DNA from: Balamuthia mandrillaris
Taxonomy: Eukaryota > Discosea > Longamoebia > Balamuthiidae
Assembly (NCBI GenBank): GCA_031835245.1
Contig: JAVKOQ010000154.1
Location: 62,001-126,000 of the forward strand
Length of the DNA stretch: 64,000 nucleotides
Direction of reading: 5' to 3'
Shown here: piece by piece, positions 2,932 through 47,400 of the stretch
Position numbering within the stretch: position 1 is the first letter of the stretch
How the letters are laid out: each line of letters opens with the position of its first letter
Program-made: the position numbers and the translations under genes
Notes under the pieces: generated by a model
Database searches by the model: none
Told to the model about the DNA's origin: nothing
The model's input: the letters and a program-made list of their open reading frames with translations, nothing else

Positions 2932-4544
2932 CTTACACGTAACATTCCCCAACGGAGCATATGGGGAACGCGATACAGGCTCCGCTCCACGATCGCGTCA
3001 TCATCGGTCATGTCAATGATGGAGGGCACAACGTCTTCAAAGTCAGAGAAATAATGGAGAAGAGCAGCTTTACGTTCGCTACCCTCTTTGAAAACTGATT
3101 TGTGTTCCGCTAGAAAGCCTAACATGGCAGACCAGTAAACCTTTCTATCGCTGAGCGGAACGACTTGTATGAGTCGGGCGTCACCCCAATACTGATGGAT
3201 TAAAAGTCACACCAGTGAGAAAACTCACAAATGAAAGTTCTTGCGAGAATGCGGTGATGGGTGTGGGATGAAAGGCTACAAAATCGCCCACCCACGCCCT
3301 TCACCATCTCCTGCGGGGGTGATGTGGTGTTTTGGGAAATAGAGGGGAAGTATGAAATTTCACTCACCTGTAACGGCCCTTCCTCCACCATTTTGTGGTA
3401 CTCTTCCTCCGCAGTAGGAGGTAGGGTCGCAATGCCCTGAAATTGTTGTCGCTGTTGATAAACAGCTGTTATCCCCTTGGATGCTGGCCCCAGGTAGTAC
3501 TGTTGTGGTGGTTGCACTTGGCGTCAGCTTCACACCAAGAGAGAGAAGGATGGAGAGCGAGAGGAGACCAACCAGCGCTCTTACGGTAGAGTGTGTCCCA
3601 TCAGCGCCTGTATCATGTCTTTAGCTGAACAATGCCTAATCAACAACAGACGAGACAGAGGAGGCTACAAACCAACAAGCAAATCGGATACCTCTTCTGC
3701 TCCGTTCTCGAACGAGGCAGAAACCTTGAGGTTACCGTCGGTAGCCTTGGCGCGCACAAAACGATGACCGTACTCAATGCTGGTCTCCATTGACAAATTC
3801 TCGCGCAATAAGTTCTCAAGCTCAACCTGTTCTACCCCTTTCTCCCAACCACTCTGGTCAGCACCCTCTTAATTTCAACAGCAGAAGAGAAAGGGAGTGG
3901 GAGAGCAAAGAGAGGAGAAAGGGAGAACAAAAAGGAAAGACAGCAGAGAACGAGAGAACGAGAAAAAGAAAGGCATTAGACAAGGCGAATGGTAGCAAAG
4001 GTACGCACAAAATACGGGAGGAGCAGTGGCGGCGACATCGTTGGGGGCAGCAAAGAGAAGGTGACCCTTGTTGTTCTTGATGCGAGGAAAGAGAGAATAA
4101 GGTCTATGTAGTGTATTGTAGATGCGCGTCCTTCCGCCAATGGCACGTTGATGTTGCGGTTCTTGCTCAGCTGCCCCGCTGCTGCCTGTGAGAAAGCGGT
4201 GCTTAAGGCCTATGGCTTGCAAGCAGGCCAATGCTTGTGGACCCAAACATACCACGCTGGAACGTAGGGCGCGGTTCTTCTCGGCAAGGGAGGGCGCTGC
4301 TTCGAAGAGCTTTGCCGCTATACCCACTTTTTGTAAGCCATTGGCAAGGGTGAGACCACCTGAACGGCAAACGAGAGGGTTAAACACTCATCGACAACAA
4401 CTGCAACAACAAACTTTTGGGAGAAAGAAGGAGAGGCGATTAACTTAACCCGGCACCGATTATGCTTACCCGTTCGATGGCGTGTATGCCAGGCGCGGCG
4501 GAACGCAGCATTCCCATCGTGACTTTTTGTTGTTGCGCATTCAT
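2290..4544 (-). CDS. FAD-dependent monooxygenase (PHBH/kynurenine 3-monooxygenase-like)
   Basis: Flavoprotein hydroxylase expected to oxidise a small aromatic or polyketide-like substrate with NAD(P)H and O2. At least seven exons can be followed on the minus strand. The start exon 4544-4446 carries the dinucleotide motif IIGAGLSGLTLA, split by intron 4360-4445 (phase 1). Exon 2 runs LFEAAPSLAEKNRALR. Later exons carry EYGHRFVRAKA, VGADGTHSTVRALVG (the DG fingerprint, near 3590), WGDARLIQVVPLSDRKVYW (3193-3125), TVLVGDACHAIEP (the GD FAD/ribose motif, near 2800) and SLAMEDAIELSH (near 2700). The order of motifs is that of class A monooxygenases. One exon around 3370-3520 is only tentatively placed. 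The gene is transcribed away from the DENN gene, sharing the 4545-5201 spacer. The substrate cannot be read from sequence. Confidence 0.8.
3194..3300 (-). repeat. Structured ~105-bp repeat, copy 1 (inside a monooxygenase intron)
   Basis: Shares TGATGGATTAAAAG, ACTCACAAATGAAAGTTCTTG and AGAATGCGGTGATGGG (plus strand) with 38291-38398. On the minus strand its 3' end CCATCAG coincides with the acceptor of the intron preceding the exon that starts YWGDARLIQ. Potential hairpins: GTGAG-aaaa-CTCAC and TTCT-tgcg-AGAA. Confidence 0.65.
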
Positions 4545-34227: not shown

Positions 34228-37200
34228 CATGTGTACCCCCATACCATTTGTGCGTGTAGGCGAGGGTGCCATTTCATGTGTTAACCCAACAACTTGGCCA
34301 AACGCTGGGCACGGAGCTCTCACCGCTCGATGTGCTTTGTCTGGAAGCCCTCTTTTCCCAAGCAATTGGTAGTAAGTACCTGCCTACCTGCCCTCTTTTC
34401 TTTTAGTTTTTCAACAAAATCTGTATCGGGGAGCCCCTCACCTCTTTCGCAAGCAGATGGAAGCCAACAACTCTTGTTCATCCCTCTTTCCGAGCTTGCT
34501 CTCTTTCTGAAGAGGTTTGGCCCTCTTCAGCACTGCATTGAGAAGGTGGGTTATTCGTTGGCTCGTTTATGTTGGCTTTTCCCCCTCTGTTCTTTTCTTG
34601 CTGCATGTTGTTGTTGGCCCTTTCTCTCTTGGGTGATAGCATGTTGTTGACCTGGAGTGATGGCGGTGGGATATGGTGGTGGGATTGCGTTTTAGGTCAA
34701 AGACGCAGTGATAGGTGGTAGGGCTTACTTCCACGGAGGGATCAGCAGGCAGGAGGCCAATGAACGGTTGCAGGGGAAACCGGAGAAGAGCTTCTTGATC
34801 CGCTACAGCAGCAGCAATCCTAGTGCATTCTCTGTAACCTACATGCAAGGCCAGAGCATAAAGATATTCAATGGTGTGGAAAATCACGAAACAGGGCCAG
34901 GCGTACGCCTTCATTCTGGCAACAAAACCTCCTACTTCAAGAGTCTCTCTGAATGCATCACGAAGAACGCTCATATCTTCAAAGAAAGTTGCTCAGCTCC
35001 CTCAACCGACTGTTTGGAGCGCTACAAGCAAAGGATTGATGAGGCTTTAGGCCTCGTTACAGGAGCCACGATAGGAGGTGAAAAGGAAGGGGAAGGAGCC
35101 GAAAAAAGCGATGCTATGAATGCTGCACGCTCTCCTTTGTTGCTGGCTTATCATGATGCGATGAGCGGACGGAAATCATCCCTTGTTTTGTCAAGCTTGG
35201 GACTCAATTCCTTTCCCTATAGTTTTGACTTAGGCGCCCTTGCTGATTTTCTGTGCGAACTTGACATTTCTGACAACAGTCTCACCGCTCTCCCGGAAAG
35301 CTTAAGCAAGCTTCACCACCTTAAAATTCTTTGTGCGAACGACAACCAGCTTTCATCCTTGCCTTGCTCCATTTCTAGCCTCAGAGCTCTGGAGCAGTTG
35401 AAGCTTGCTAGGAACACTTTCGCATCGATTTGCCAGGAAGTAGGAATGCTCAACCAGTTACGTTATTTGGACGTTTCCGACAATCAACTTGTTCGCATTG
35501 ACCCTCAGCTCTTCCAGCAGCTCCAGTTGTTGGAGGTATGTTTATCCCTCGCTTCCTTTTAACAGATAAGTAGTTTGCTTTTACTGGACGTTTTCTGATC
35601 CCCCTCCCTCTCTCCCCTCTTTCGAACAGCACGTAAACTTGGCAAGGAACAGGTTATCTGAGATTCCACAGGCTATCTTTAAGCTGCCTCACTTGCAAGA
35701 ACTGCTTTTAGGGCACAACCACATCCGCTGGCTGCCAACAGCCATTAAGGAATGCAGTGGCCTACGAGTTTTAGATTTGAGTGGAAACCACATCACCAGG
35801 TAAGGTATATGACCGAGTTTCAGTTTTTCGGTCTGACGAAGTGCTTTGAATTAAACAGGCTTCCCGCGGAGCTAATCGACTTTTATCGGCAACTGGAAGC
35901 GTTGAATGTGGAAGGGAACGACATGAGCTCTCCTCCAAAGGCGGTGTGCGCGCAGGGAATCGCTGCTATTGTCAGATTTTTCACCGTTGCAAGGAACGCA
36001 TCTGAGAGTGACGGGATGCTGATCCAGGCTTCTGCCACTCCCAGCCGCAAGAAAGAAGATGAGCAAAAGGAATTAATTGATGGCAAATCGCTTGTGTTAC
36101 TTCCTGAATCAGTTGTTGGAGATTTTGACAGCAGTAGCGACGATGAAGAACTTTCTTCTCTTTCTGAAAGTGTTTGGACAGACAAGTCGCAATTCGATAA
36201 GTTGAAGTTCCAAACCATCAACGATTTTTTCTTGTTGGACGACGATTTGAAAGAGCTAAAGAAAAAAGAGACTAGGCGCTACGACCAGTTGGAAATTATC
36301 CTCAAGCTAAAGGAAAAACGGGAAGAACTTATGAAGGGGACTGGCATAGAGGTTTGCTTTCTTGGCCCATTATCTTCTTATCTCCTTGCTAACTCGCTGT
36401 GACTTTATTTCTGGCCATACAATAATGTAGGATCAGCGCTCCAGGTCAAAGTTGCGTGGGTCTTGGCAAACCGGTGCTATCGTTTCGCCATCCCCAGAGT
36501 TTTGGGTGGAAGCTGGGTCAAATGATGATCCCTATGACCCTAAAAATTGTTGTGTTGATGCCAGTAACGATTGTATAGAATATTCTCGCCATATTCTTAA
36601 AATGGGTTTGTTATTCCTTGGGGCTGTGTGTTTTTCTCTCTTAGTTCTTGTTTTTTGCAAGTTTTATCGATTTTCTTCTCTTTATTAGTAACTATGTTTG
36701 TCTGTTGTGTGTTCTGTTAGAACTTACTCCTTTGTATGAGCAGTGCATACCAACCTCGTCGGAATTGATCCAGAACTAGGGCCGGTGGCTATTTCAATGA
36801 GCAAGCAGCTGGAGAAAAGCGAGTATAGCGCCATAAGCGCCGAGTTTTATAGGGCTCTTGTGCGTACAGGAAATGTACGTTTGTCTTGGTTTTCGGTTTT
36901 GTCTTGGCTTTGCTCATTGCCTTTTGATTGGTGCACATCCAAGGAGGATATAGTGACAGAAATTCCCGCTGCCTTGGTCAAACGAAAAAAAGCGCGAGGA
37001 AAGTCCGATGCAGCTCCTCGGTCTAAAGATTTATTACGAGGACTGCGCAAAATATTAGAGCCTCGACTAAAGAAAGCGGATTTACGTGTAGTACGGGTAC
37101 GGAAATCGCAACAAGAGTTTATGAAGCTGGAACACACGCTCAGAGTATGTGCCCCTTCTTCTGTCTCTTTCTTTTCGCTTTTAACAACTATTTGTTTATG

Positions 37201-38259
37201 CATTGCAGGCTCCTCAATGGTTTAGGTTTGGTGTGCTCTATGCTCAAGATGGTCAGACTAGTGAAGAGGAGATGTACAATAATGGTTTTAACTCCTGCAA
37301 AACCTTTCTAGTCTTTCTCTTTAGGATACATTGCTAATTTTGGTGCTTCAGCGATTGGTAGTGAGCGGTTCCACGAATTTTTGGAGTTTTTGGGAGAGCG
37401 TATTCGCCTAAAAGGCTGGAAGAAGCATAATGCAGGCTTAGATGTGAAAAGTGGGTTCTTTTATTGGTTACATCCGTTTTTCTGACTATTTGCGATAACC
37501 GTGTGCAGGGGATTCAACCGGTACTGAATCATATTTTACGGAGTTTGAGGGCTTTGATATCATGTACCACGTATCTACGCTCCTTCCATACCTTCCCAAT
37601 GATCCTGATAGGGTAAGAAGTTCATCCAACTCCAGTGAGTATCTTTGATTCACTTACAATTTCTTTGCTTTCTTTGTTTTTAACAGTTGGAACGAAAGAG
37701 GCATATTGGTAACGATGTGGTTGTAATTGTATTTAAGGATACCGTGCCTGGAGGAACTTCTCATCCTCTTCCTCTTGTTTTTAATTCGCACATGACACGT
37801 ATGAAAATGCTTTTTTCTTTGCTGTCGTTTCCATGTTTGCTGATAGCATTCCAAACTGTAGATGTGTACGTGATAGTGGAAGTTGATTGGGCAAAGACCG
37901 GCCAAAAAACATTCTATCGGGTCAACATTGCCTATAAAGATGATGTACCTGAAAGCCAGCCCATCCTGCCTCAACCTCCCTCTTTTGAGAAAAATGATCT
38001 CTTCCGGAAGTTTTTGCTAACCAAACGTACGCTTGGCCTTTAGTTCCTTTTTTACTTTGTAACTTGCTAAATGCTTGTTTCGTGTTTTCTGGTAGTCATC
38101 AATGCTGAACGGGGCTCTTACTTTGCGAGGGAACTTCGCATGGCAAATAGGAGGAAGCGTTGGGCTGTCTTAGAGGATCTTGAAAAGAACCAATTGCCGA
38201 AGATCAAAAAGAAACAAGAAGACAAGACAGCAGATTACTATCGTCCTATATTTGACTGA
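34025..38259 (+). CDS. SH2-LRR-RapGAP signalling protein
   Basis: One multi-exon gene joining three signalling modules. Start at MQQSPRAAGS (34025), whose exon splices in phase 0 to ARVPFHVLTQQLG. A helical segment LFIPLSELALFLKRFGPLQ precedes the SH2 domain, as in STAT-like amoebozoan SH2 proteins. The SH2 (34708-34980) has AYFHGGISRQEANERL and the phosphotyrosine-binding Arg in SFLIRYSSSNPSAF. At least seven leucine-rich repeats follow (35160-35900; CELDISDNSLTALPESL, LLLGHNHIRWLP). The C-terminal Rap/Ran-GAP domain (about 36740-38100) includes RFGVLYAQDGQTSEEEMY, EFLGERIRLKGW, MYHVSTLLPYLPND and RKRHIGNDVVVIVF, the last containing the catalytic Asn of RapGAPs. Predicted to switch off Rap-type GTPases in response to phosphotyrosine. 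Some introns in 36650-37500 are placed only approximately. Confidence 0.85.
34190..34226 (+). repeat. (CA)n microsatellite in intron 1 of the SH2-LRR-RapGAP gene
   Basis: About 18 CA units inside the intron that runs from 34136 to 34259. Confidence 0.95.
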
Positions 38260-38290
38260 AGGGACACATGTTTTTCTACATGTTTGCTAA

Positions 38291-38398
38291 ATGCTGATGG
38301 ATTAAAAGCCACACAAGTGAGTAAACTCACAAATGAAAGTTCTTGCAAGAATGCGGTGATGGGGTGGGCTAGAGGGCTACAGAAACGCCCATCAGCAC
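38291..38398 (-). repeat. Structured ~105-bp repeat, copy 2 (3' of the RapGAP gene)
   Basis: Same sequence family as 3194-3300, 32 bp after the RapGAP stop. Here the outer ends pair (GCTGATGG with CCATCAGC). The inner hairpins GTGAG-taaa-CTCAC and TTCT-tgca-AGAA keep their stems while their loops differ from copy 1. Strand of function unknown. Confidence 0.6.
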
Positions 38399-38399
38399 A

Positions 38400-39252
38400 C
38401 TCCCATATGGCTCCATCGGGCAACGCTAGCAACAGAGGCTCCGGAGGAGTATGTTGCGAGCTCCATTTACGTCTAGATCCAGTCGTATCCCACAGTCCCT
38501 ATGCTAAAGCGGAGCAATGAATTTTTGTCGACGTGAAAGATCTCTGCTAGAGATGAGACAATGAAAAAGACAACAGAAATGGCCTTTTTATGGTAAGATA
38601 AAGCCTCTGTTTTGATTTTTGATTGGTGGTTTGAAACTTTCAGTAACCGATCAAAGCATTGAGCCGCTTTAATATTACGCCGAAGCTATATTTCGACAAC
38701 GAAAAAAGAAATCACGACATTAGTCTTTTGGGCCAATGAGCATGTTTCCCGCCAAAACAACCCTTCCTTCTCCCACGCCTTTGAAGGCAAAGTGGTGGGT
38801 TGGGGTGTACGGAATGGATGCTCATGCTGCTGCTGCCGCCAATAAACTTTTGGTACTCGTCATTCGCCTTGACACTTTTCTGCTACTCGTTTTCTTTTCT
38901 TCTCTTCTCTTCTTTTCTTTTCATTTCTTTCTTTTCAAAAGTAAACACACAGACACACACATCCACGAAGCTCCACGCACCACCGTATTTCTCATTGCTA
39001 CGCTTCTACTACACAAGGAGGAAACCAGCCGAAGGAGGCAGAGGTGGAAACCGAAGCGGTTCAGCCGCAGGCAGGGGCACTGCTCCGATTGAAAAGGTAG
39101 CGTTCTTTTTTCTCTGCTCGCTCACTACATTTTTTGATGATGGAAACAAAATTTGTTACCAACCACTCACTAATGATTTCTTTTGTTTAAAAAAGAACAG
39201 CATCACGAACCTCTGTGCGCCTCTTCCACAACGCTGCTGGAAGCTGGCCTGA
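38400..39252 (+). other. Region upstream of the Fanzor gene; no clear gene
   Basis: Contains a CT/CTTTT-rich stretch (38880-38940) and an open frame with a possible spliced continuation (38960-39096, donor AAAAG/GTAGCG, acceptor near 39199). The spliced frame that reaches 39252 ends in TGA immediately before the Fanzor ATG. The left end of the Fanzor element should lie here, but no repeat with the second copy was found to define it. Confidence 0.4.
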
Positions 39253-41028
39253 ATGGCAAGTTGCCCACAGTGCGGAAAAAAGTTTGCTACCTCTCACGGG
39301 TTGGCCATCCACTTCGGTCGGGTCCACAAGGAAGGGGGTCGCGCCACTACTTCTGCTACTTCCACTGCTACTCGGAAAAGAAGAGCGGAAAACGCCCCAG
39401 CGGCACCTCAGGCAAGGGCACAGAAGCGTGGAAGGCCGCAGGCTGCACCCGCCCAGCCCTTTTGGAACCAGTTTTCCAGCTTAATCGGGAGAAGATTAAT
39501 ACGCCCGGAAGCCTTGTGCTTGGAAGAACCCTTTGCCTGTGGTTCAGGATGGTTCACCGCCTGCAAGCACATTCCTAACGGAGAAAAGGTGTTGGAGGAG
39601 GAGGAGGAGAAGAAGGAGAAGGAGAAGAAGGAGGAAGAGGAAGAGGAGAAGGAGAAGGAGAAGGAGAAGAAGGAGGAAGAGGAAGAGGAGAAGGAGAAGG
39701 AAGAAGAGGAGAAAAACCAGAAAGGCTTGTTAGGTCTCATCGAGGGACTCGTTCCGTCTCGCCCAGCCGTACAGCTCACCAAAAAAGGCAAGAACGGAGA
39801 GGAGAAACCGGTAGTGGGGCGAGTGGAGAAGATCCGCCTTTATCCGCGCCCGGAACAAAAGAAGACGTTGGCCAAGTGGTTCGGCACAGTACGATGGACC
39901 TACAACAAGGCCGTGGAGTTCCATCGTGAACATCAAGGAATGCCTCGTGATGAGATGAAGGAACAAGTCAGGAAGAAATTCCTAAATAACAGCAATTTCA
40001 AGGGAGAGGACAAGAGCCTTGCGTGGGTGTTGGAAACTCCTCGATTCATTCGGAGTGACGCTGTCGATGATTTCTTCAACGGCGTGAAAACCAGCTTGGC
40101 GGCGGGCAGAGGCACGACTGGATTCCAGATGAAGTTCCGTGGTAGGAAGGACAAGAGCCAGTCTCTCAGCATCCAAGCCAGGGAGTGGAACCACAACAGC
40201 TCTATCCGCCAACTCTTCTTCGGGGAGGCGCGAATCAAAGCGAGGGACAAGAACTACAAAGTTCCGTCAGAGGTGCTCTATGCCGTTCGTCTGGTGAAGG
40301 ACACTCGACTGGGCCATTACTACCTCTGCGTGCCTCAGCCTTTGAAGCTCATGGGCGAGAGCCAAGCCCGTGAGCACCGAAGGAGAGAGGCAGGCATCAT
40401 CGCCTTGGATCCAGGAGTGCGCACATTCATGACCACCTACAACGGCTGCGGGGAGGTCACCGAGTGGGGCAAAGCGGACATCAACGAGATAGGCAAGCTG
40501 TGCCACCGCCTGGATCGCATGCAGAGTAAGGGCACCAAGGTCAACCACAGACAACGGCGCCGTCTCCGAAGGGCCGCTGCTCGGCTTCGCCAGAGGATCC
40601 GCAACCTGGTGGATGACCTCCACAAGAAGCTCGTGTTTTGGTTGGTCAGGAACTTCTCCCTCATCCTTCTGCCAGAGTTCAGGAGCCAGCAGATGGTGCG
40701 GCGAGGCCACCGCCGCATTGGCTCGCGAACGGCCAGAGCCATGCTGACCTGGTCCCACTATCGCTTCAGGCAGAGGCTCCTCAACAAGGCCCAGCAATTT
40801 CCGTCCTGTACGGTCTGCCTCTGCGATGAGGAATACACCTCCAAAACCTGCGGCAAGTGCGGCCAAGTCCACCACCAGTTGGGGGGAAACAAGACCTTTC
40901 GGTGCCCCCAACCCGAGTGTGGCTACCAGGCCGATCGAGATGCCAACGCCGCCCGAAACATCTTGATCCGCTTTTTCACTTTACAAGCACTTACCACCTC
41001 CTCCTCCTCCTCTGTGAGGGGGCGGTAG
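39253..41028 (+). CDS. Fanzor: eukaryotic TnpB-like RNA-guided nuclease, apparently intact
   Basis: Single 591-codon frame without introns, in a genome where almost every gene is split. An in-frame TGA directly precedes the ATG, fixing the start. Residues 4-25 form a C2H2 finger (CPQCGKKF...H-x4-H), followed by an Ala/Arg-rich basic stretch and a Lys/Glu tract (about 117-156). The TnpB core begins with RLYPRPEQKKTLAKWFGTVR. RuvC-I is IIALDPGVRTF (Asp about 386), RuvC-II LILLPEF (Glu about 475), and RuvC-III DRDANAARN (Asp about 563). The zinc ribbon EEYTSKTCGKCG-x(n)-FRCPQPECG lies between II and III. All catalytic and zinc-binding residues are present. TnpB and Fanzor enzymes cut DNA guided by an RNA encoded at the element's 3' end. 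No transposase is adjacent. The extra N-terminal C2H2 finger is an added domain. It could be a mobile element's gene or a host-kept copy. Confidence 0.92.
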   Translation: MASCPQCGKKFATSHGLAIHFGRVHKEGGRATTSATSTATRKRRAENAPAAPQARAQKRGRPQAAPAQPFWNQFSSLIGRRLIRPEALCLEEPFACGSGWFTACKHIPNGEKVLEEEEEKKEKEKKEEEEEEKEKEKEKKEEEEEEKEKEEEEKNQKGLLGLIEGLVPSRPAVQLTKKGKNGEEKPVVGRVEKIRLYPRPEQKKTLAKWFGTVRWTYNKAVEFHREHQGMPRDEMKEQVRKKFLNNSNFKGEDKSLAWVLETPRFIRSDAVDDFFNGVKTSLAAGRGTTGFQMKFRGRKDKSQSLSIQAREWNHNSSIRQLFFGEARIKARDKNYKVPSEVLYAVRLVKDTRLGHYYLCVPQPLKLMGESQAREHRRREAGIIALDPGVRTFMTTYNGCGEVTEWGKADINEIGKLCHRLDRMQSKGTKVNHRQRRRLRRAAARLRQRIRNLVDDLHKKLVFWLVRNFSLILLPEFRSQQMVRRGHRRIGSRTARAMLTWSHYRFRQRLLNKAQQFPSCTVCLCDEEYTSKTCGKCGQVHHQLGGNKTFRCPQPECGYQADRDANAARNILIRFFTLQALTTSSSSSVRGR

Positions 41029-41073
41029 GCGGTAAGGTTGCTTTGGTGCCGGCACCGTTGCTTATAGCGAGTC

Positions 41074-41204
41074 GTAAGACAAGCCGTGATTAGGCACGCC
41101 GGAGGTGGTGGGTTATTTTTTGTGTCTGTTTTTTGTTTTCCTTTTACTAATTTTGCTTTATTTTCGTTGTCCCATGGATCGGCTTGATCTTGGCGCCGCC
41201 TTAG
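41074..41204 (+). ncRNA. Candidate Fanzor guide-RNA scaffold / element right end (copy 1)
   Basis: Begins 45 bp after the Fanzor stop. Nearly identical to 44243-44374, which follows the broken Fanzor. Contains a CGTG-attagg-CACG hairpin, a GT-rich and T-rich middle, and near the end GATCggcttGATC plus the palindrome GGCGCC. Both copies end ...GGCGCCGCCTTAG and then diverge completely (here TCCCTATGCC). In TnpB and Fanzor loci the guide RNA overlaps the 3' end and reads the spacer from adjacent target DNA, so bases from 41205 would be the guide. The RNA role is inferred from position and conservation. Confidence 0.55.
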
Positions 41205-41629
41205 TCCCTATGCCCGCTTTTATTTTGCAGACCGAATTTATCAATGCCTTCAATGAAGACCACCCAGAGCAGCCAATTGTACTAGTTTGTCCACGGACCA
41301 ACGCCATGGGACACGTTATCTATGGTACTGAATGCTACAAAAGGCTCAAAGAAATGCTGCAAGGACCAGAGAGTGGCACCAAACGAACCAAGCGCACGTT
41401 AAAGGCTGAGGAGTTTGTGATGGCGTTGTGGGAACAGGAAAAAGCTTGGTGTACGGTTGTGAATTGTGGAGAGTATAGCAAAGAAGAGGAAGAGGAGGAG
41501 GAGGAGGAGGAGGAGGAGGAAGAGAGTGTAAAAGTAGAAGAAAAGACAGCACCAAGGCAAGCCAAGCGTAAAAAAACGGGGAAGCAAACTGCAGACCATC
41601 AAGCCGTCCTTGATCCAACTCTCTCGTAA
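41174..41629 (+). CDS. Acidic/basic low-complexity protein or host exon next to the Fanzor element
   Basis: Open frame running out of the conserved 3' block. The piece after TTTTATTTTGCAG (41230) looks like a real exon: FINAFNEDHPEQPIVLVCPR, AEEFVMALWEQEKAWCTVV, then a poly-Glu tract (GAG repeats at 41487-41524) and a Lys-rich end KRKKTGKQT. The part before 41230 is probably element sequence. It may be what remains of a host gene into which the Fanzor element inserted. No family recognised. Confidence 0.35.
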   Translation: MDRLDLGAALVPMPAFILQTEFINAFNEDHPEQPIVLVCPRTNAMGHVIYGTECYKRLKEMLQGPESGTKRTKRTLKAEEFVMALWEQEKAWCTVVNCGEYSKEEEEEEEEEEEEEESVKVEEKTAPRQAKRKKTGKQTADHQAVLDPTLS

Positions 41630-41689
41630 CAAAAGGAACCCCGGAGAGAGGAAGACGAGTGCTAATTGCCACCCAGTAAAACATAAGAA

Positions 41690-44001
41690 TTAGACAGGAG
41701 TCAGTTCAGTGGCGACGACGATGACCCAACAGAGCCAAGCAACGTCCTCGCCGAGGACCTCCTCTCCCTCGTTACCGTCTTTGTCTGTCGACACCGGTAT
41801 ACCGATCCCCATCCAACAGCATGAACGGGCTCCCGATAACCAAGGGAGTATTGTGGCTTTGGATCCAGGGGTTCGTACCTTGCTAAGTTCGGTTGGAAAG
41901 CAACAGCATAGAAAGGAGAGGAGGGTGACCTGTGCGTGAGTGAAACCTGACCACGAGACGATGAATCGAATGTGGCACACAGACTTGGACTTCTGGCGAA
42001 GCAGCTCAAGTTGGTCTTGCCAAAGCTTTTGCAGGTGGGCATGATTGTCCAGCTGCACTTTCCGTTTTTGTTTTAAGAACCAGTCCCGAGAGGTGCTGTG
42101 AATCGCCTCGCTAAACGAATCGGGAGGCAGCCGCTGCCTCCAGGTTTTAACCTGTATGGAGCACAAGCAGAGTACCTGGTCGGTCTGCGCAGTGAAAAGA
42201 ATATCGGGCAGGCACAGGCCTGTTTTTGCTAAAATGACTTTATCTTGCAAGATGTCAGGTCGCAGGAACTCGGCAGACGGGATCTTAAAGTCGTCCATGC
42301 GTCCAGCTGTAAGTGCACAAACCTTGGCAGACCTGAGTAACCGGAGGACCTGCGTGGGAGCCCTGACAATTCCATCGCACCACTCGGAAATCAGATCACC
42401 AAGCTCTGTGTCATGGCGCTGTAGCAACTGAAGAGCAATAGCATGCTCGGCAAACACAGCTAAGTTCGTTCCAAACTCGTGTTGTAAGTGACGATCAGCA
42501 TTGAGATAAGCATTATTCCTATTGTCGACGAGGGCCTCTTCCACAAGGGGATCGCTGATGACCGCCTCTATGTGTTGAGTGTCTAACTTGTACCGCTTCA
42601 CGCGCGCATACCCAATCTCCACAACATCGGCCAGATGAATTCCACTCCCCGTCAAACGCTTGTTGCAAAGCAGCAACGAGAAATGGATCAAATCGGTCAA
42701 TTGTTGGGCACGAGCCAGGGTTGTAGATGACGGATGACGAAGCTCGTACTCTCTGATGAGCAGTTTAATGAACTCAGTCGCCAACTTCCTTGCTTCCTGC
42801 TCGTTGGCCTCTATGGACTGAAAGTCATCGGTTTCAGGTTTGAGCTTCCTAAGGTGGGGTAACAGAAATTCGAAGAAGAAGCCAGGCCGTCCAGTCCAGC
42901 GTTTGAGCATGCGTTCCAGTTGGGTAGTGTTTTCAAGGCTAAGCTTCTCCAGGCCTGGAATATGATGGCGGATTGTTGCCAGCATTTCGCCTACAGTGAG
43001 GTCATGTAGGTGGAAGAACTTGATAATGTTGGGTCTCTCACGAGAGGCGCTGGCAGAGTCGAGCAATGGTTCCCAAGCAGAAAAATGGGTCGAGGTGAAG
43101 ATGGTTACTTGAGGCTGTTCCATTTTCAGGTATTCGGTCACAACCCACCGAAAGGCCCAAAACAGATCCGTTCTGGAATGGTAGGGGTAACCTGGGGGAG
43201 GACCTCTACCTTCTTGCCGCATTTCGTAGAGCTGCCACGCTATGACATCCTCTGGTAAATGGTCATTGTAGTCGGAGTGGAATAAACAGCCTTTGAAGTA
43301 CTGCTGAGGTGTATGGCACTCGTCAAGCACGAAGTAGGGCGTTCCAAGCTTTTCTGAGAGCTGTCTATGGCAGGCAAGTAGGTCTGATTTCGTCTTCTTA
43401 AGGTCGTCCCCTCTCAAGCTGTCCACCCGCCACTTATCTATCTCTTGCGAGAAGAGTTCCGAAAGAAGAGTGGTCCCCCCCCATTAAGAAGTAGTCCGTT
43501 AAAAATGCGCCTTTCGTTGTACTCAACACTTCCCCAGCGTTCCCTCCCCATAGCCTGAAGGAAGTACTCGGTGAAACGCATGTAGCAGAAGAAGAAGATT
43601 CGAATCTTAAGCATCATTCGTCTGTTGTGGTCTCTTCGCTGCTCGAATGAAAGGTTGTCGTAGACGGCATTGTTGGCGAGGTGCTGAATAAGATCATTAT
43701 ACACCGCGTTGCTAGTGGCAAGAAGGCGGATCAAAATGATGGGTCTGTCTAGCATTTTGTAGACCAGCTCCAGCAAAAGGCGCGTTTTGCCGGAGAGGGT
43801 AGCTTGGACCAGCGCCACGAAAGAGCGAAGTTGCGGGTTGGTTTGGTCCCTTGGGAAGCAAGCCAGCAGTCTCTCGACAGCATCTCCTAGGTATTCGGTT
43901 TGGAGGAGTGGTACCTGTTCTCCCTCAAGTTTTTTCTTAAAAGCTTCAACCCGGTCCTGTAGTCCAGCTTCAATACTGCCCGCAGGCGCAGAGACCTGCA
44001 T
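41690..44001 (-). pseudogene. CRN-like P-loop NTPase with PD-(D/E)XK nuclease-like end, frameshifted
   Basis: Intronless, read from 44001 downward. The N-part has a P-loop-like VQATLSGKTRLLLELVYKM and, further on, a Walker-B-like PYFVLDECHTPQQYF. The middle is all-helical (LPHLRKLKPETDDF, ATEFIKLLIREYELRH). Near 42250-42160, LCLPDILFTAQTDQ-x5-CSIQVKTW fits a PD-x(n)-Q-x-K nuclease core, the arrangement described for Crinkler (CRN) family proteins. The frame breaks at a C-run (about 43478-43486), which could be a true lesion or a base-calling error. The last about 80 codons before the stop at 41690 are antisense to the RuvC-I fragment, so the natural C-terminus is lost or altered. The whole gene lies between two pieces of one broken Fanzor. 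Confidence 0.6.
41700..41895 (+). pseudogene. Second Fanzor copy, RuvC-I fragment
   Basis: Translation contains NQGSIVALDPGVRTLL, the RuvC-I box of a TnpB-like nuclease, preceded by a short VDTGIPIPIQQHERAPD stretch resembling the strand before it. No N-terminal domain is attached upstream. The frame loses similarity after 41890, where the antisense NTPase gene starts to dominate. Confidence 0.7.
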
Positions 44002-44039
44002 GCTTGTTGTACTTTTGAGTTATTTGAGATTATCTGCGC

Positions 44040-44246
44040 CGCACACAGCAAACGCTTGGCGCAAAGTGGTGACGGAGGCCCACACCACCAAGACCTGCGG
44101 ACACTGTGGGCAAACCAACGAACGAATGGAGGGCAAGAAGGTCATTCGTTGCGGAAACTGGATTGGTGGCAGACAGAGACGTCCATGCTGCCAGGCACAT
44201 CCCCTTGCGTTTCCTGGGCGACATGGAGATCTTGCCCCCGTGGTAA
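44040..44246 (+). pseudogene. Second Fanzor copy, zinc ribbon and RuvC-III fragment
   Basis: AWRKVVTEAHTTKTCGHCGQ followed by KKVIRCGN gives the first zinc pairs of the ribbon. After a frame change the sequence RDVHAARHIPLRFLGDM supplies the RuvC-III D-x-x-A-A-R region, and the frame stops with TAA at 44244-44246. Different enough in protein sequence from the intact copy to be another subfamily, yet followed by the same 3' block. Confidence 0.75.
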
Positions 44247-44374
44247 GACAAGCCGTGATTAGGCACGCCGGAGGTGGTGGGTTATTTTTGTTTCTCTGTT
44301 TTTTGTTTTCCTTTTACTAGTTTTGCTTTATTTTCGTTGTCCCATGGATCGGCTTGATCTTGGCGCCGCCTTAG
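44243..44374 (+). ncRNA. Candidate Fanzor guide-RNA scaffold / element right end (copy 2)
   Basis: Overlaps the stop codon of the broken Fanzor and is almost the same as 41074-41204, with a few substitutions and a one-base indel in the T-rich middle. After CGCCTTAG the flank is GGATGTGGATG, unlike copy 1. It ends 64 bp before the last codon of INTS4 on the other strand. Confidence 0.55.
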
Positions 44375-44438
44375 GGATGTGGATGTGCAAGAGTAGTCAT
44401 ATCACAAAGTGTAAAATGTTGAAATTTTGCGCGATATG

Positions 44439-47400
44439 CTATATTAATAAAGGCGCCTTAGATATTGTTAAAGGGTTCTTGGCTTTGGCAGGATGTGGTA
44501 AAAGTGGGGCGGGCCATAAAGTCACAACCCCTGCAGCTGATTCTGAGACGGAGGGGGGCACAGAGCTGTTGCTGCTTGGAGGCGCTTTGGGGTCCTGCCA
44601 CGATGCCGCTGTTAATGGTGATGGCACACCCTCATGGAAGGCCTGTACGATTTGTATCTGGAGAGAGGCCTGCCCTGACCATTCTCTCTGCGGAATCGAG
44701 ATGGCTAAAGTCTCTGCCATACGGTAGCAGTTTGGGCGTAAGGGCTTGAACGATTGCTTGTTCAAAGAGAACAGCTGACTGGTGAGATCTGGAAATGTCA
44801 CTTGCACCATTAACCGGCTCACGTCTCTTACATTGCGCACAGTTGCCTCCACACGAAGTTGCAAAGGAAGGCTTGAAAGGAACTCCTCTGCTTTATCTGG
44901 GTTAGTTCTGGGTTGAGTAATTTCCGCAGAGCTCCGTTTAAGCTGCTGCCCAGGAGGTTGTGCGGCCTGTGCAGAGGCCACCATAGCTGGCAGAAACATC
45001 TGTGTATCACAACTGCGCAGTAAGTACAGCGAGGTGCTCAACCATTGGAGAAATGCAATAGAGAATCAAGAACAAACCGTGAGGAGGTCCAACACTTGGC
45101 GATGCCCGTCGGTAGCAGCAAAAGAAGAAACAAGATCTTGAACTCGTTGGTTGAAGACTTCAAGTTGATGTGACAAGGGTATATTGTGGTGTTGGCTGTA
45201 AGAGGTTAGGGTGTTGGTGATGCAGTTTAACAAGTGGGTTGTGGTTTGTATGTGAGAGGTGGAGATGCCAACGGGGCTGTGGCTGTTGTAAGAGGTTTTT
45301 AGAAGCTTTTGAAAACTTGCTTGGTATTTTGCATCTTCGCCACTGTGGTTCATTTCCTGTTCTATTGTTGGAGTATTGGAGACATAGAAAGCAGAGAGGA
45401 ACAGTAGGTAAGCGTAGAGGCGAAGCTGATAAATATGAAATTGAAGAGAAGAATGGACTCCAAGGAAGAGATGTTGCAGCTGATAAGTTAGCCGCAGCAG
45501 TTTGTGGGCGCTGTCTGTTGTCGTTCCACGTAGAGGATCTCTTTTTGTCTGTAATGGAGATTTAGCAAAGAGAGAGGAACAAGAGAACGAGAGCAAGAGA
45601 GAAAAAGAGAAACGACGAAGGGAGAGAGAACGGCACCTGGAACAGAAAAGAGAAAGAAAAAGAAAAAGAAAAAGAAATAGTTATACCTGTACAAGGATAG
45701 TAAGGCACTGAAGATAAAGGAGGTAAAACTCGGCTTCATCACAGAGAGTTGGGTCGGTACTAGCAAGGTGTTTAAGGTTCCTTGCGCATGTGCTGATCAT
45801 ATTTTTGGCTTGTGGCAGGTTTTGTGTTGCGATCAAAGACAATATGTGCTGTGACTGGTTGACGGTGCTGCGAAAGAAGCTTGGCGGACTTGTTTCAGGG
45901 TTGTTGATAGCTGAAAGTGAGGCCAGCGAAGAGAAAGAGGAAGTGGGAGAGGATGCAGAAACTGTAGACGTTGATGCGGAAGAAGCAGGGGAAGGGTTGT
46001 GAAAAACAAAAGCAGTTGTTGGGACAGTTTGGAAATTCGGAATAAGGTCTGGAAATTTGTCTTTGAGGAAGCGGTGGTGTCGCATAGTGAAGGAAGGGAG
46101 CAAGCGGAGTATGTTGGGGCTAGAAAGGGCGGCATTAAAGAGGAACACCATGATGGCAATATAAGGCACGTCGTTGGTATGAGGCTCCACAGCGAGAAAA
46201 CGCATGTCCATGCCTCGATAGAGATGGAGTATATCCTCTACAAGAAATTCAGCAAAGTTGCCGTGGTGTTTGCCTAAACTCTTGAGGCAGTGAAGGATGC
46301 TGAGTTGGTCATCAGGATAGCGCTGGAAGTTGGCGAGGAGAGCTTGCACCGTGGCCAGAAGACAGGTTATGTTGGAAACCTTAATGGTAGCAAGCAAGTG
46401 ATGCACAGCTTCCCTAATCTTGGCAGAGGCCTCCTCCAGCACGGCAAGAATGGTGTGGAGCTGCTCTTCCTTGATTTGCACTTTGGCACCAATCTTATGT
46501 ACACTTTCGATGGAGTTAATGCATACTTCATCTATTTCATCGTTGAACATGTCCACCAAGTATTCCACCGCTCGTGTAGCCAGATGTTGAGACCGCATGC
46601 TCAACTCGCACAGGGAATCCACCGCAGCTGACCGCACTTCATAGTACTCATCCTCTAGACCATGCACAAATGCTCCTGCTGCCGCTGCGATATCTGATGT
46701 CAACATTACACTATCTTCAAAGAAAGCGCTGATGTCCATATCTCCTGCTGGATTGGTGTACCGATTCCTGGAAGAAGCAGAGCTTCGGGCGCGGCTGCGT
46801 TGTTGTTGTTGTTGATACGGATCTGATTGGGAACCTTTGCCTTGCACAAGTACATCTTTGGTCAACGTTTGCAGAAGATAACCTACTTTGACTTCACGGA
46901 TGCTCCCCAATAAGCTACATGCCTGCACAAAAGTTCTTTCATTAACATGTTTGTAATGGGGTTTGGTAATTTGCAAAGCCGTACCAGCTGGCGGACTGTA
47001 GGGGAGGCATCATTCACTGTGTTGCAAATCTTCATAAAGCCATCATCGACAAGTCTCATCTTTTTCTGTTGGACGGTCATTCCAGATGATATGTTCGTGT
47101 CAGGATACATGTTGCTCAGCACCCTGTTAGACAAGTGAATTGAGGAGAAATGAGTGACAACAGAGATCAGCATTACTTTGGCAATCCATAGGTAGCCTGC
47201 AGCCAAAAGATAGGGTACCAGAGCAGTTTGACAGCTTCCAGCCGCACGCTTTCATAGTCATCATTCAAAGCCGCAACGGCGCTACTGTAGAGATGGACTA
47301 CATCCAATGTAAAACCGCGTGTCTGCAGTATTAACACTCCTTGTAAGGCAGCCTATTACATTGGTGTACACGTTCAGTGCCATGGAGTAGTGACTTGACT

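Follow-up and report, generated by a model that had tools for sequence, protein, structure and literature searches.

The DNA analyzed here (64,000 nucleotides of one contig of the Balamuthia mandrillaris genome, hereafter the window) contains an uninterrupted reading frame that, on a first reading of the letters, was taken for an intact Fanzor nuclease that had arrived recently or is mobile and that carries an added C2H2 finger at its N-terminus. The question raised by this locus is what kind of nuclease the frame encodes, from where it came, and how it relates to the DNA that carries it. The answer that we consider probable is that a Fanzor2-type RNA-guided nuclease is the sole long gene of an approximately 2.5 kb Balamuthia transposon with terminal inverted repeats (TIRs), a so-called Fanzor2*, and that it would act by the mechanism proposed below. 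The features on which this answer draws are collected in Table 1.

Table 1. Features of the Fanzor locus, in window coordinates (position 1 is the first nucleotide of the window).
Feature	Position	Strand	Basis
CAG, then left copy of target duplication TCCCTATGC	38493..38504	+	Sequence; insertion-free site on haplotype contig C145
MITE-like stretch, 168 bp, with related ends; outer left part of inserted unit	38505..38672	+	Sequence, copy comparison
Element body common to other copies; window copy lacks outer 30 nt including left TIR	38695..41204	+	Edges of other copies
Intron-like GT...AG stretch in 5' leader	39097..39200	+	Sequence; sister-copy gene model P0002
Fanzor2-type ORF, 591 aa	39253..41028	+	Translation, Pfam, NCBIfam, structure-profile matches
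C2H2-pattern finger CPQCGKKFATSHGLAIHFGRVH, residues 4-25	39262..39327	+	Pattern present; Pfam below cut-off
Lys/Glu-rich linker, residues 114-155, length-variable among copies	39592..39717	+	Sequence, copy comparison
HTH_OrfB_IS605 match, residues 193-223, start of TnpB core	39829..39921	+	Pfam
RuvC-I Asp D386 (DPG)	40408..40410	+	Invariant in 51 aligned sequences
TNB/zinc-ribbon domain, residues 502-570, with DRD (D561, D563)	40756..40962	+	Pfam, alignment
Likely RuvC-II Glu E526, alternative position, six residues before zinc ribbon	40828..40830	+	Invariant in 51 aligned sequences; signature in PMC10711439
Candidate omega-RNA scaffold, right end	41074..41204	+	Position; right-end block recurs at 44240-44374
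Right TIR GATCTTGGCGCCGCCTTAG	41186..41204	+	Copy comparison, TIR search
Flanking DNA forming putative guide, first 9 nt = target duplication TCCCTATGC	41205..41225	+	Sequence

Identity of the Nuclease

The frame opens with an ATG directly preceded by an in-frame TGA, continues without an intron for 591 codons to a stop, and matches TnpB-family models in Pfam (TNB, PF07282, 2.4e-16; HTH_OrfB, PF12323, 2.6e-10) and NCBIfam (guided_TnpB, NF040570, 124.5 bits against a cut-off of 100). Together with the catalytic signature described next, these matches bear out the predicted intact Fanzor frame and its zinc ribbon, and they supply the RuvC/TnpB profile match without which that identification would have fallen. 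PADLOC returned mainly Cas12f/Cas12u-type cross-matches and one match to a model named Csx1. The protein of a gene model for a sister copy (P0002) reads as if the intron-like stretch of the 5' leader had been spliced out. A 214-aa antisense frame lies within the element (40267-40911), and the window also holds eukaryote-type genes, namely those for an INTS4-like HEAT protein and RRM proteins.

In the passages of PMC10711439 on their signature, Fanzors are defined by a DPG motif in RuvC-I together with a Glu that precedes the zinc-ribbon CxxC by six residues. D386 and E526 reproduce this signature, with both residues invariant among 51 aligned sequences and E526 placed six residues before C533; D561 and D563 are conserved in at least 90% of the same sequences. 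By simple patterns, DPG and the alternative Glu were detected in 116 of 117 relatives (a set from which three other Balamuthia proteins were left out), in 10/10 ORFs from viral contigs, and in 72/73 from prokaryote contigs, these 83 ORFs being the loci, of 124, at which our script found a frame. E475 (LLPEF) occupies the usual RuvC-II place and was rejected as the catalytic residue because it is variable: the pattern was readable in 111 of the 117 relatives, and only 30 of these carry Glu at this place. The RuvC-II Glu is probably E526 and not E475; the three RuvC acidic residues of the original prediction are present, but the Glu is probably a different one. The nuclease core is an ordinary member of its family.

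Relatives and Phylogenetic Placement

The closest solved relative is the TnpB-like protein L79 of mimivirus (PDB 9b0l; 2.6e-27 in a single-sequence search, improving to 8e-45 when the family profile was used), a viral protein that aligned over the core with low identity to the Balamuthia ORF. No Fanzor1 chain was recognized among 20 PDB profile matches (Fanzor structure is treated in PMC11423790). The protein looks like a Fanzor2 rather than a Fanzor1, judging from its compact TnpB-like core and its best PDB match and with a tree that holds no Fanzor1 reference. Among the listed relatives, three carry the name Balamuthia mandrillaris, and the best two of these match at 96% and 82%. The best match in phage records was 35.8% (68 records).

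Phylogenetic reconstruction was conducted on 96 rows, comprising 60 of the 117 relatives, 25 of the 73 prokaryote-contig ORFs, 8 of the 10 viral-contig ORFs, two Balamuthia proteins of a second Fanzor family (family 2, discussed below), and the query. In this tree, a check that the original prediction had itself named, the query sits on a long branch in a group of 62 rows (98/93) with a EukProt protein; of the 25 prokaryote rows, 24 fall outside that group, and every one of these is cyanobacterial. The exceptions are L141, from a 3.5-kb contig of an uncultured bin, which lies inside the group, and the viral L097, which lies just outside on the same side. The group as a whole, most rows of which are metagenome proteins, we infer in part to be eukaryotic. 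The ORF itself is encoded in the 64.8-Mb genome of Balamuthia (775 contigs), in agreement with the restriction of the term Fanzor to proteins encoded by eukaryotes or viruses.

These placements bear on the idea that the ORF is a contaminant or a TnpB taken up not long ago from bacteria on which the amoeba feeds. In favor of this idea, the frame lacks an intron, and cyanobacterial TnpBs, the 'pro-Fanzors' of PMC10711439, carry the same DPG and alternative Glu, as in the prokaryote-contig ORFs above, with 35-38% identity to the Balamuthia ORF. However, the query groups with a EukProt protein and apart from nearly all rows of the prokaryote collection, and its element bears TIRs and occupies many places in an amoeba genome (see below), all of which renders a bacterial origin highly improbable. 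Fanzors have been described from Dictyostelium, Polysphondylium, and Acanthamoeba (Bao and Jurka 2013, PMC3627910), those of Acanthamoeba being Fanzor2 in IS607-type elements according to the same source; therefore, Amoebozoa as Fanzor hosts are not new.

The Element and Its Copies

To delimit the element, the Balamuthia genome was searched with the sequences flanking the ORF, and 40 of 377 candidates for the left edge and 40 of 116 for the right were scored, such that the resulting counts are lower bounds. Among the other scored copies, 34/39 begin at window position 38695 and 35/39 end within a few bases of 41204. The family occupies at least 58 places (40 with a left end, the window included, and 18 with a right end alone), some of which may be alleles on haplotype contigs. 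Most copies that were read extend a further 30 nt to the left, to TAAGGCGGCGCAAAGATC, which is the inverted repeat of the right end. A pattern search for the TIR allowing up to two mismatches returned 268 sites (133 and 135), against 2 in a reversed control; several pairs of sites are separated by only tens to hundreds of bases, resembling in this the ghost elements known for SpuFz1, and deletion derivatives are many. The Fanzor is the sole long sense frame of the element.

As for an IS607-type alternative, the element carries TIRs and target duplications, and no credible recombinase match was detected in the window (best 25.8%, E = 0.10). A MULE transposase was sought genome-wide, and none of its 68 matches lies less than 42 kb from a TIR site among the 100 of 268 sites checked, a point against the mechanism proposed below. 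The TIRs, together with duplications of 9 bp described below, support the predicted mobility. The predicted recent arrival gained no support; the family is resident, with at least 58 places and with intact copies that differ at 3.9% of synonymous sites. As separate observations, MULE-domain matches often occur at a distance of approximately 1.29 kb from where a contig begins, which would suit a position close to the ends of contigs or chromosomes, and TNB matches with frames of 181 to 732 aa on five contigs (C774, C27, C71, C622, and C57) are tied to neither of the two families studied here, possibly representing a third Fanzor family.

The window copy lacks its own left TIR. The 9-bp sequence TCCCTATGC, preceded by CAG, is present at 38496-38504 and again at 41205-41213, and between the two lie the 168-bp MITE-like stretch, 22 bp, and the Fanzor element. 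The occurrence of this repeat on both sides indicates that the MITE and Fanzor form a unit that sits between two copies of one target, and for this reason a simple loss of the left end next to unrelated DNA was rejected. Contig C145, which looks like a second haplotype, is 99.06% identical to window positions 36700-38504 and carries CAGTCCCTACGCCCGC without the insertion; it is rearranged relative to the window beyond CCGC, so the right side is comparable over a short part only. The target of the insertion was a relic of an IS607-type Fanzor2, as revealed by matches of the family-2 protein P0122 at 38395-38500 (- strand) and 41799-41888 (+ strand). Further downstream, the remnant of another Fanzor C-terminus, far more diverged (44072-44216, + strand; two pieces, 48% and 57%), is directly followed at 44240-44374 (+ strand) by a 96% copy of the block at 41071-41204, an arrangement which hints that the module may have been preserved or exchanged as a unit.

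Target Sites and a Predicted TAM

Among 17 copies with both flanks, exact 9-bp duplications were identified in 7, duplications of 7 or 8 bp in 2, and none in 8, the last of which counts against the mechanism that we favor. In two of these eight, L003 and L030/L089 (contigs C98 and C114), the right flank is roughly the inverse of the left rather than a direct duplication. The 26 left flanks have C at position -12 in 20 cases and G at -10 in 18, with exact CAG at -12 to -10 in 10/26 against 11 of 650 background positions. A separate set, obtained by fetching 39 further left ends of which 34 were unique, has CNG at -12 or -11 in 25/34, with a background of 4.8% per position; the middle base of these 25 sites is A in 18, G in 6, and T in 1. 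At the mirrored place on right flanks, CNG was observed in 3/27. The C(A/G)G target motif is one-sided and lies 5' of the duplication.

Published TAMs include CCG (NlovFz2), TAG (MmeFz2), and CATA (SpuFz1), and SpuFz1 elements have a conserved CA before their left end (PMC10432273). Because of the one-sided C(A/G)G before insertions and these published TAMs, we predict that the TAM of the Balamuthia Fanzor is CRG. The many insertion sites thereby yield, from sequence alone, a prediction that can be tested. Occupied sites read TAG before the guide position, and the difference between C and T could separate empty from occupied sites.

Candidate Guide RNA and Proposed Mechanism

The omega-RNA in published Fanzor elements includes the TIR (passages of PMC10432273 and PMC10711439), and from this and the position of the right end we infer a candidate omega-RNA that would derive from the right end and carry a guide derived from the flank. 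The right-end RNA folded no better than shuffles (z of +1.2 and +1.6), whereas the right end of family 2, which is IS607-type, gave a z of -1.93. Across 12 copies, conservation of the right end did not exceed that of the ORF (pi of 0.031 versus 0.016), and no compensatory changes were evident by eye among right ends that are nearly identical. Rfam returned no match at the gathering score over the whole window and, at a lax threshold over 38200-44500, four weak and unrelated matches (best E of 0.85). The folding, the conservation, and the Rfam result at the gathering score count against the mechanism proposed here.

Under the mechanism that we consider probable, a transposase acting in trans would move the element, generate the 9-bp duplications, and insert for the most part immediately 3' of C(A/G)G. 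Transcription of the right end would then yield an omega-RNA with flanking host DNA as its 3' tail. After excision, the restored site (C(R)G, duplication, flank) would match the guide and offer a CRG TAM, whereas an occupied site would present TAG before the guide, such that the nuclease would cut empty sites only. Repair from the sister copy would put the element back, as in the published OMEGA model.

The same sites might instead be explained if the Fanzor were a passenger, with a transposase alone fixing the C(R)G target and the 9-bp duplication while the nuclease does something else (e.g., controls the element) or simply hitch-hikes. The motif could reflect transposase preference alone, which would produce identical flanks to those observed, and it adjoins TIR ends more generally, not all of which belong to Fanzor copies, as well as the MITE in the window. 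But the motif is one-sided, and the Fanzor is under purifying selection (see below), and we regard a mere passenger as unlikely. A one-sided target motif is unusual for a two-fold symmetric transposase. A more elaborate and rather doubtful variant of our preferred mechanism is that the nuclease itself shapes at which sites the element survives, with retention of those insertions that have a CRG TAM 5' of the guide, a bias that would account for the one-sided motif, and with the C2H2 finger binding the element ends and coupling transposition to RNA-guided re-copying.

The N-Terminal Finger

The finger conforms to C2H2 spacing (Cx2-4C-x12-Hx3-5H), a pattern that arose 12 times in 20,000 shuffles of the first 60 residues, and it matches PF00096 with E = 0.016 and 16.1 bits, below the cut-off of 25.2. 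Its frame is intact in 22 of 25 distinct Balamuthia copies (matches collapsed by contig, with a partly covered 26th set aside) and is broken in the other three, on C114, C56, and C591 (L030, L035, and L038), by a 4-nt duplication that they have in common. The matches with a broken finger on C114 and C591 keep open frames of 601 and 610 aa, and a finger-less subfamily may exist. Polymorphic codons in the finger number only 2, too few to show selection on it.

The original prediction that the finger is an addition gained support, since the pattern is absent from all 117 non-Balamuthia relatives in whole-protein scans; at least 39 of these possess a stretch of 60 or more residues ahead of the core, while many are short with little N-terminal sequence, and the core motif was not found in 45/117, so that the N-terminus could not be judged for many. 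As far as seen, then, the finger appears to be an addition confined to this Balamuthia Fanzor family, and it may serve in DNA binding. In one metagenomic relative (P0009), the N-terminus instead gave a weak match to a TCR/CXC cysteine domain (residues 9-42, E = 0.0084, below cut-off). Our literature searches found no description of a Fanzor with a C2H2 finger and no publication on Fanzor or TnpB in Balamuthia, and a term search of the main text of a Balamuthia transcriptome paper (PMC8569187) found no mention of transposons, TnpB, or Fanzor.

Maintenance of the Family

Besides the window copy, 20 fetched stretches were read, one of them extending past its contig end. Eleven of these 21 copies keep frames of 579-591 aa with both signatures. 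Among 99 TNB matches in the genome, 21 that were assigned to the family by their location show a full zinc-ribbon match and lie in open frames of 568-610 aa. The 11 intact copies have a pS of 0.039 and a pN/pS of 0.24. Polymorphic codons common to two or more copies comprise 14 nonsynonymous and 29 synonymous changes against a site ratio of 3.54:1 (p = 2.5e-10), and singletons comprise 11 and 11, also below neutral (p = 0.004), with no significant difference between singletons and shared codons (p = 0.19); these p-values are only a guide, as the copies are non-independent and broken copies were left out. The intact copies are under purifying selection, which supports the view that they encode a functional protein.

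These data also bear on whether the family is dead or dying, with the window ORF being intact by youth only and no longer acting. The remaining 10 of the 21 copies read, including the one that runs off a contig, lack a full-length frame with both signatures, the window copy has no left TIR of its own, and deletion derivatives are many. Set against this are the deficit of nonsynonymous changes among shared codons, which persists among singletons, and the 21 open frames noted above, and we judge it quite improbable that the family has ceased to act.

Comparison With Known Fanzor Elements

The element fits the description of Fanzor2*, a class in which a cut-and-paste transposon that bears TIRs and makes target duplications has captured a Fanzor2, as published from the alga Chloropicon primus and from molluscs such as Mercenaria (PMC10711439). 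The Balamuthia copy differs from these in belonging to an amoebozoan, in its N-terminal C2H2 pattern, and in its 9-bp duplication after C(R)G; it thereby extends the captured class to an amoebozoan host. The SpuFz1 element of Spizellomyces punctatus likewise has a single ORF, TIRs, dozens of copies, and ghost elements, and the conserved nucleotides before its left end agree with its TAM, as predicted for the Balamuthia element; however, SpuFz1 belongs to Fanzor1, its REC region is larger, and its TAM is CATA, whereas the Balamuthia core is compact and Fanzor2-like (PMC10432273). NlovFz2 and MmeFz2 are also Fanzor2 with N-terminal extensions, and their TAMs resemble the predicted CRG, but the extensions (96 and 61 aa) are described as disordered in PMC10432273, in contrast to the C2H2 pattern and Lys/Glu linker of the Balamuthia protein.

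The Balamuthia genome also encodes the IS607-type Fanzor2 of family 2 (P0122), which is likewise multicopy with a DPG/alternative-Glu TnpB core, but its gene model includes MerR and Resolvase domains, its core is approximately 30% identical to that of the TIR family, and its right end is different. The two families represent two stages of a published evolutionary model within one genome. P0122 was not accepted as a recombinase-Fanzor fusion, the Fanzor frame being open upstream with unrelated residues, and it may be a gene model that joins two overlapping IS607 frames. Other models combining Resolvase and TnpB are P0164 (named Dentiscutata heterogama), P0185, and P0187. A right-end block of approximately 100 nt belonging to the IS607-type family is present in the window at 38290-38391 and 3188-3290, and several of the 40 genome places scored keep this block alone.
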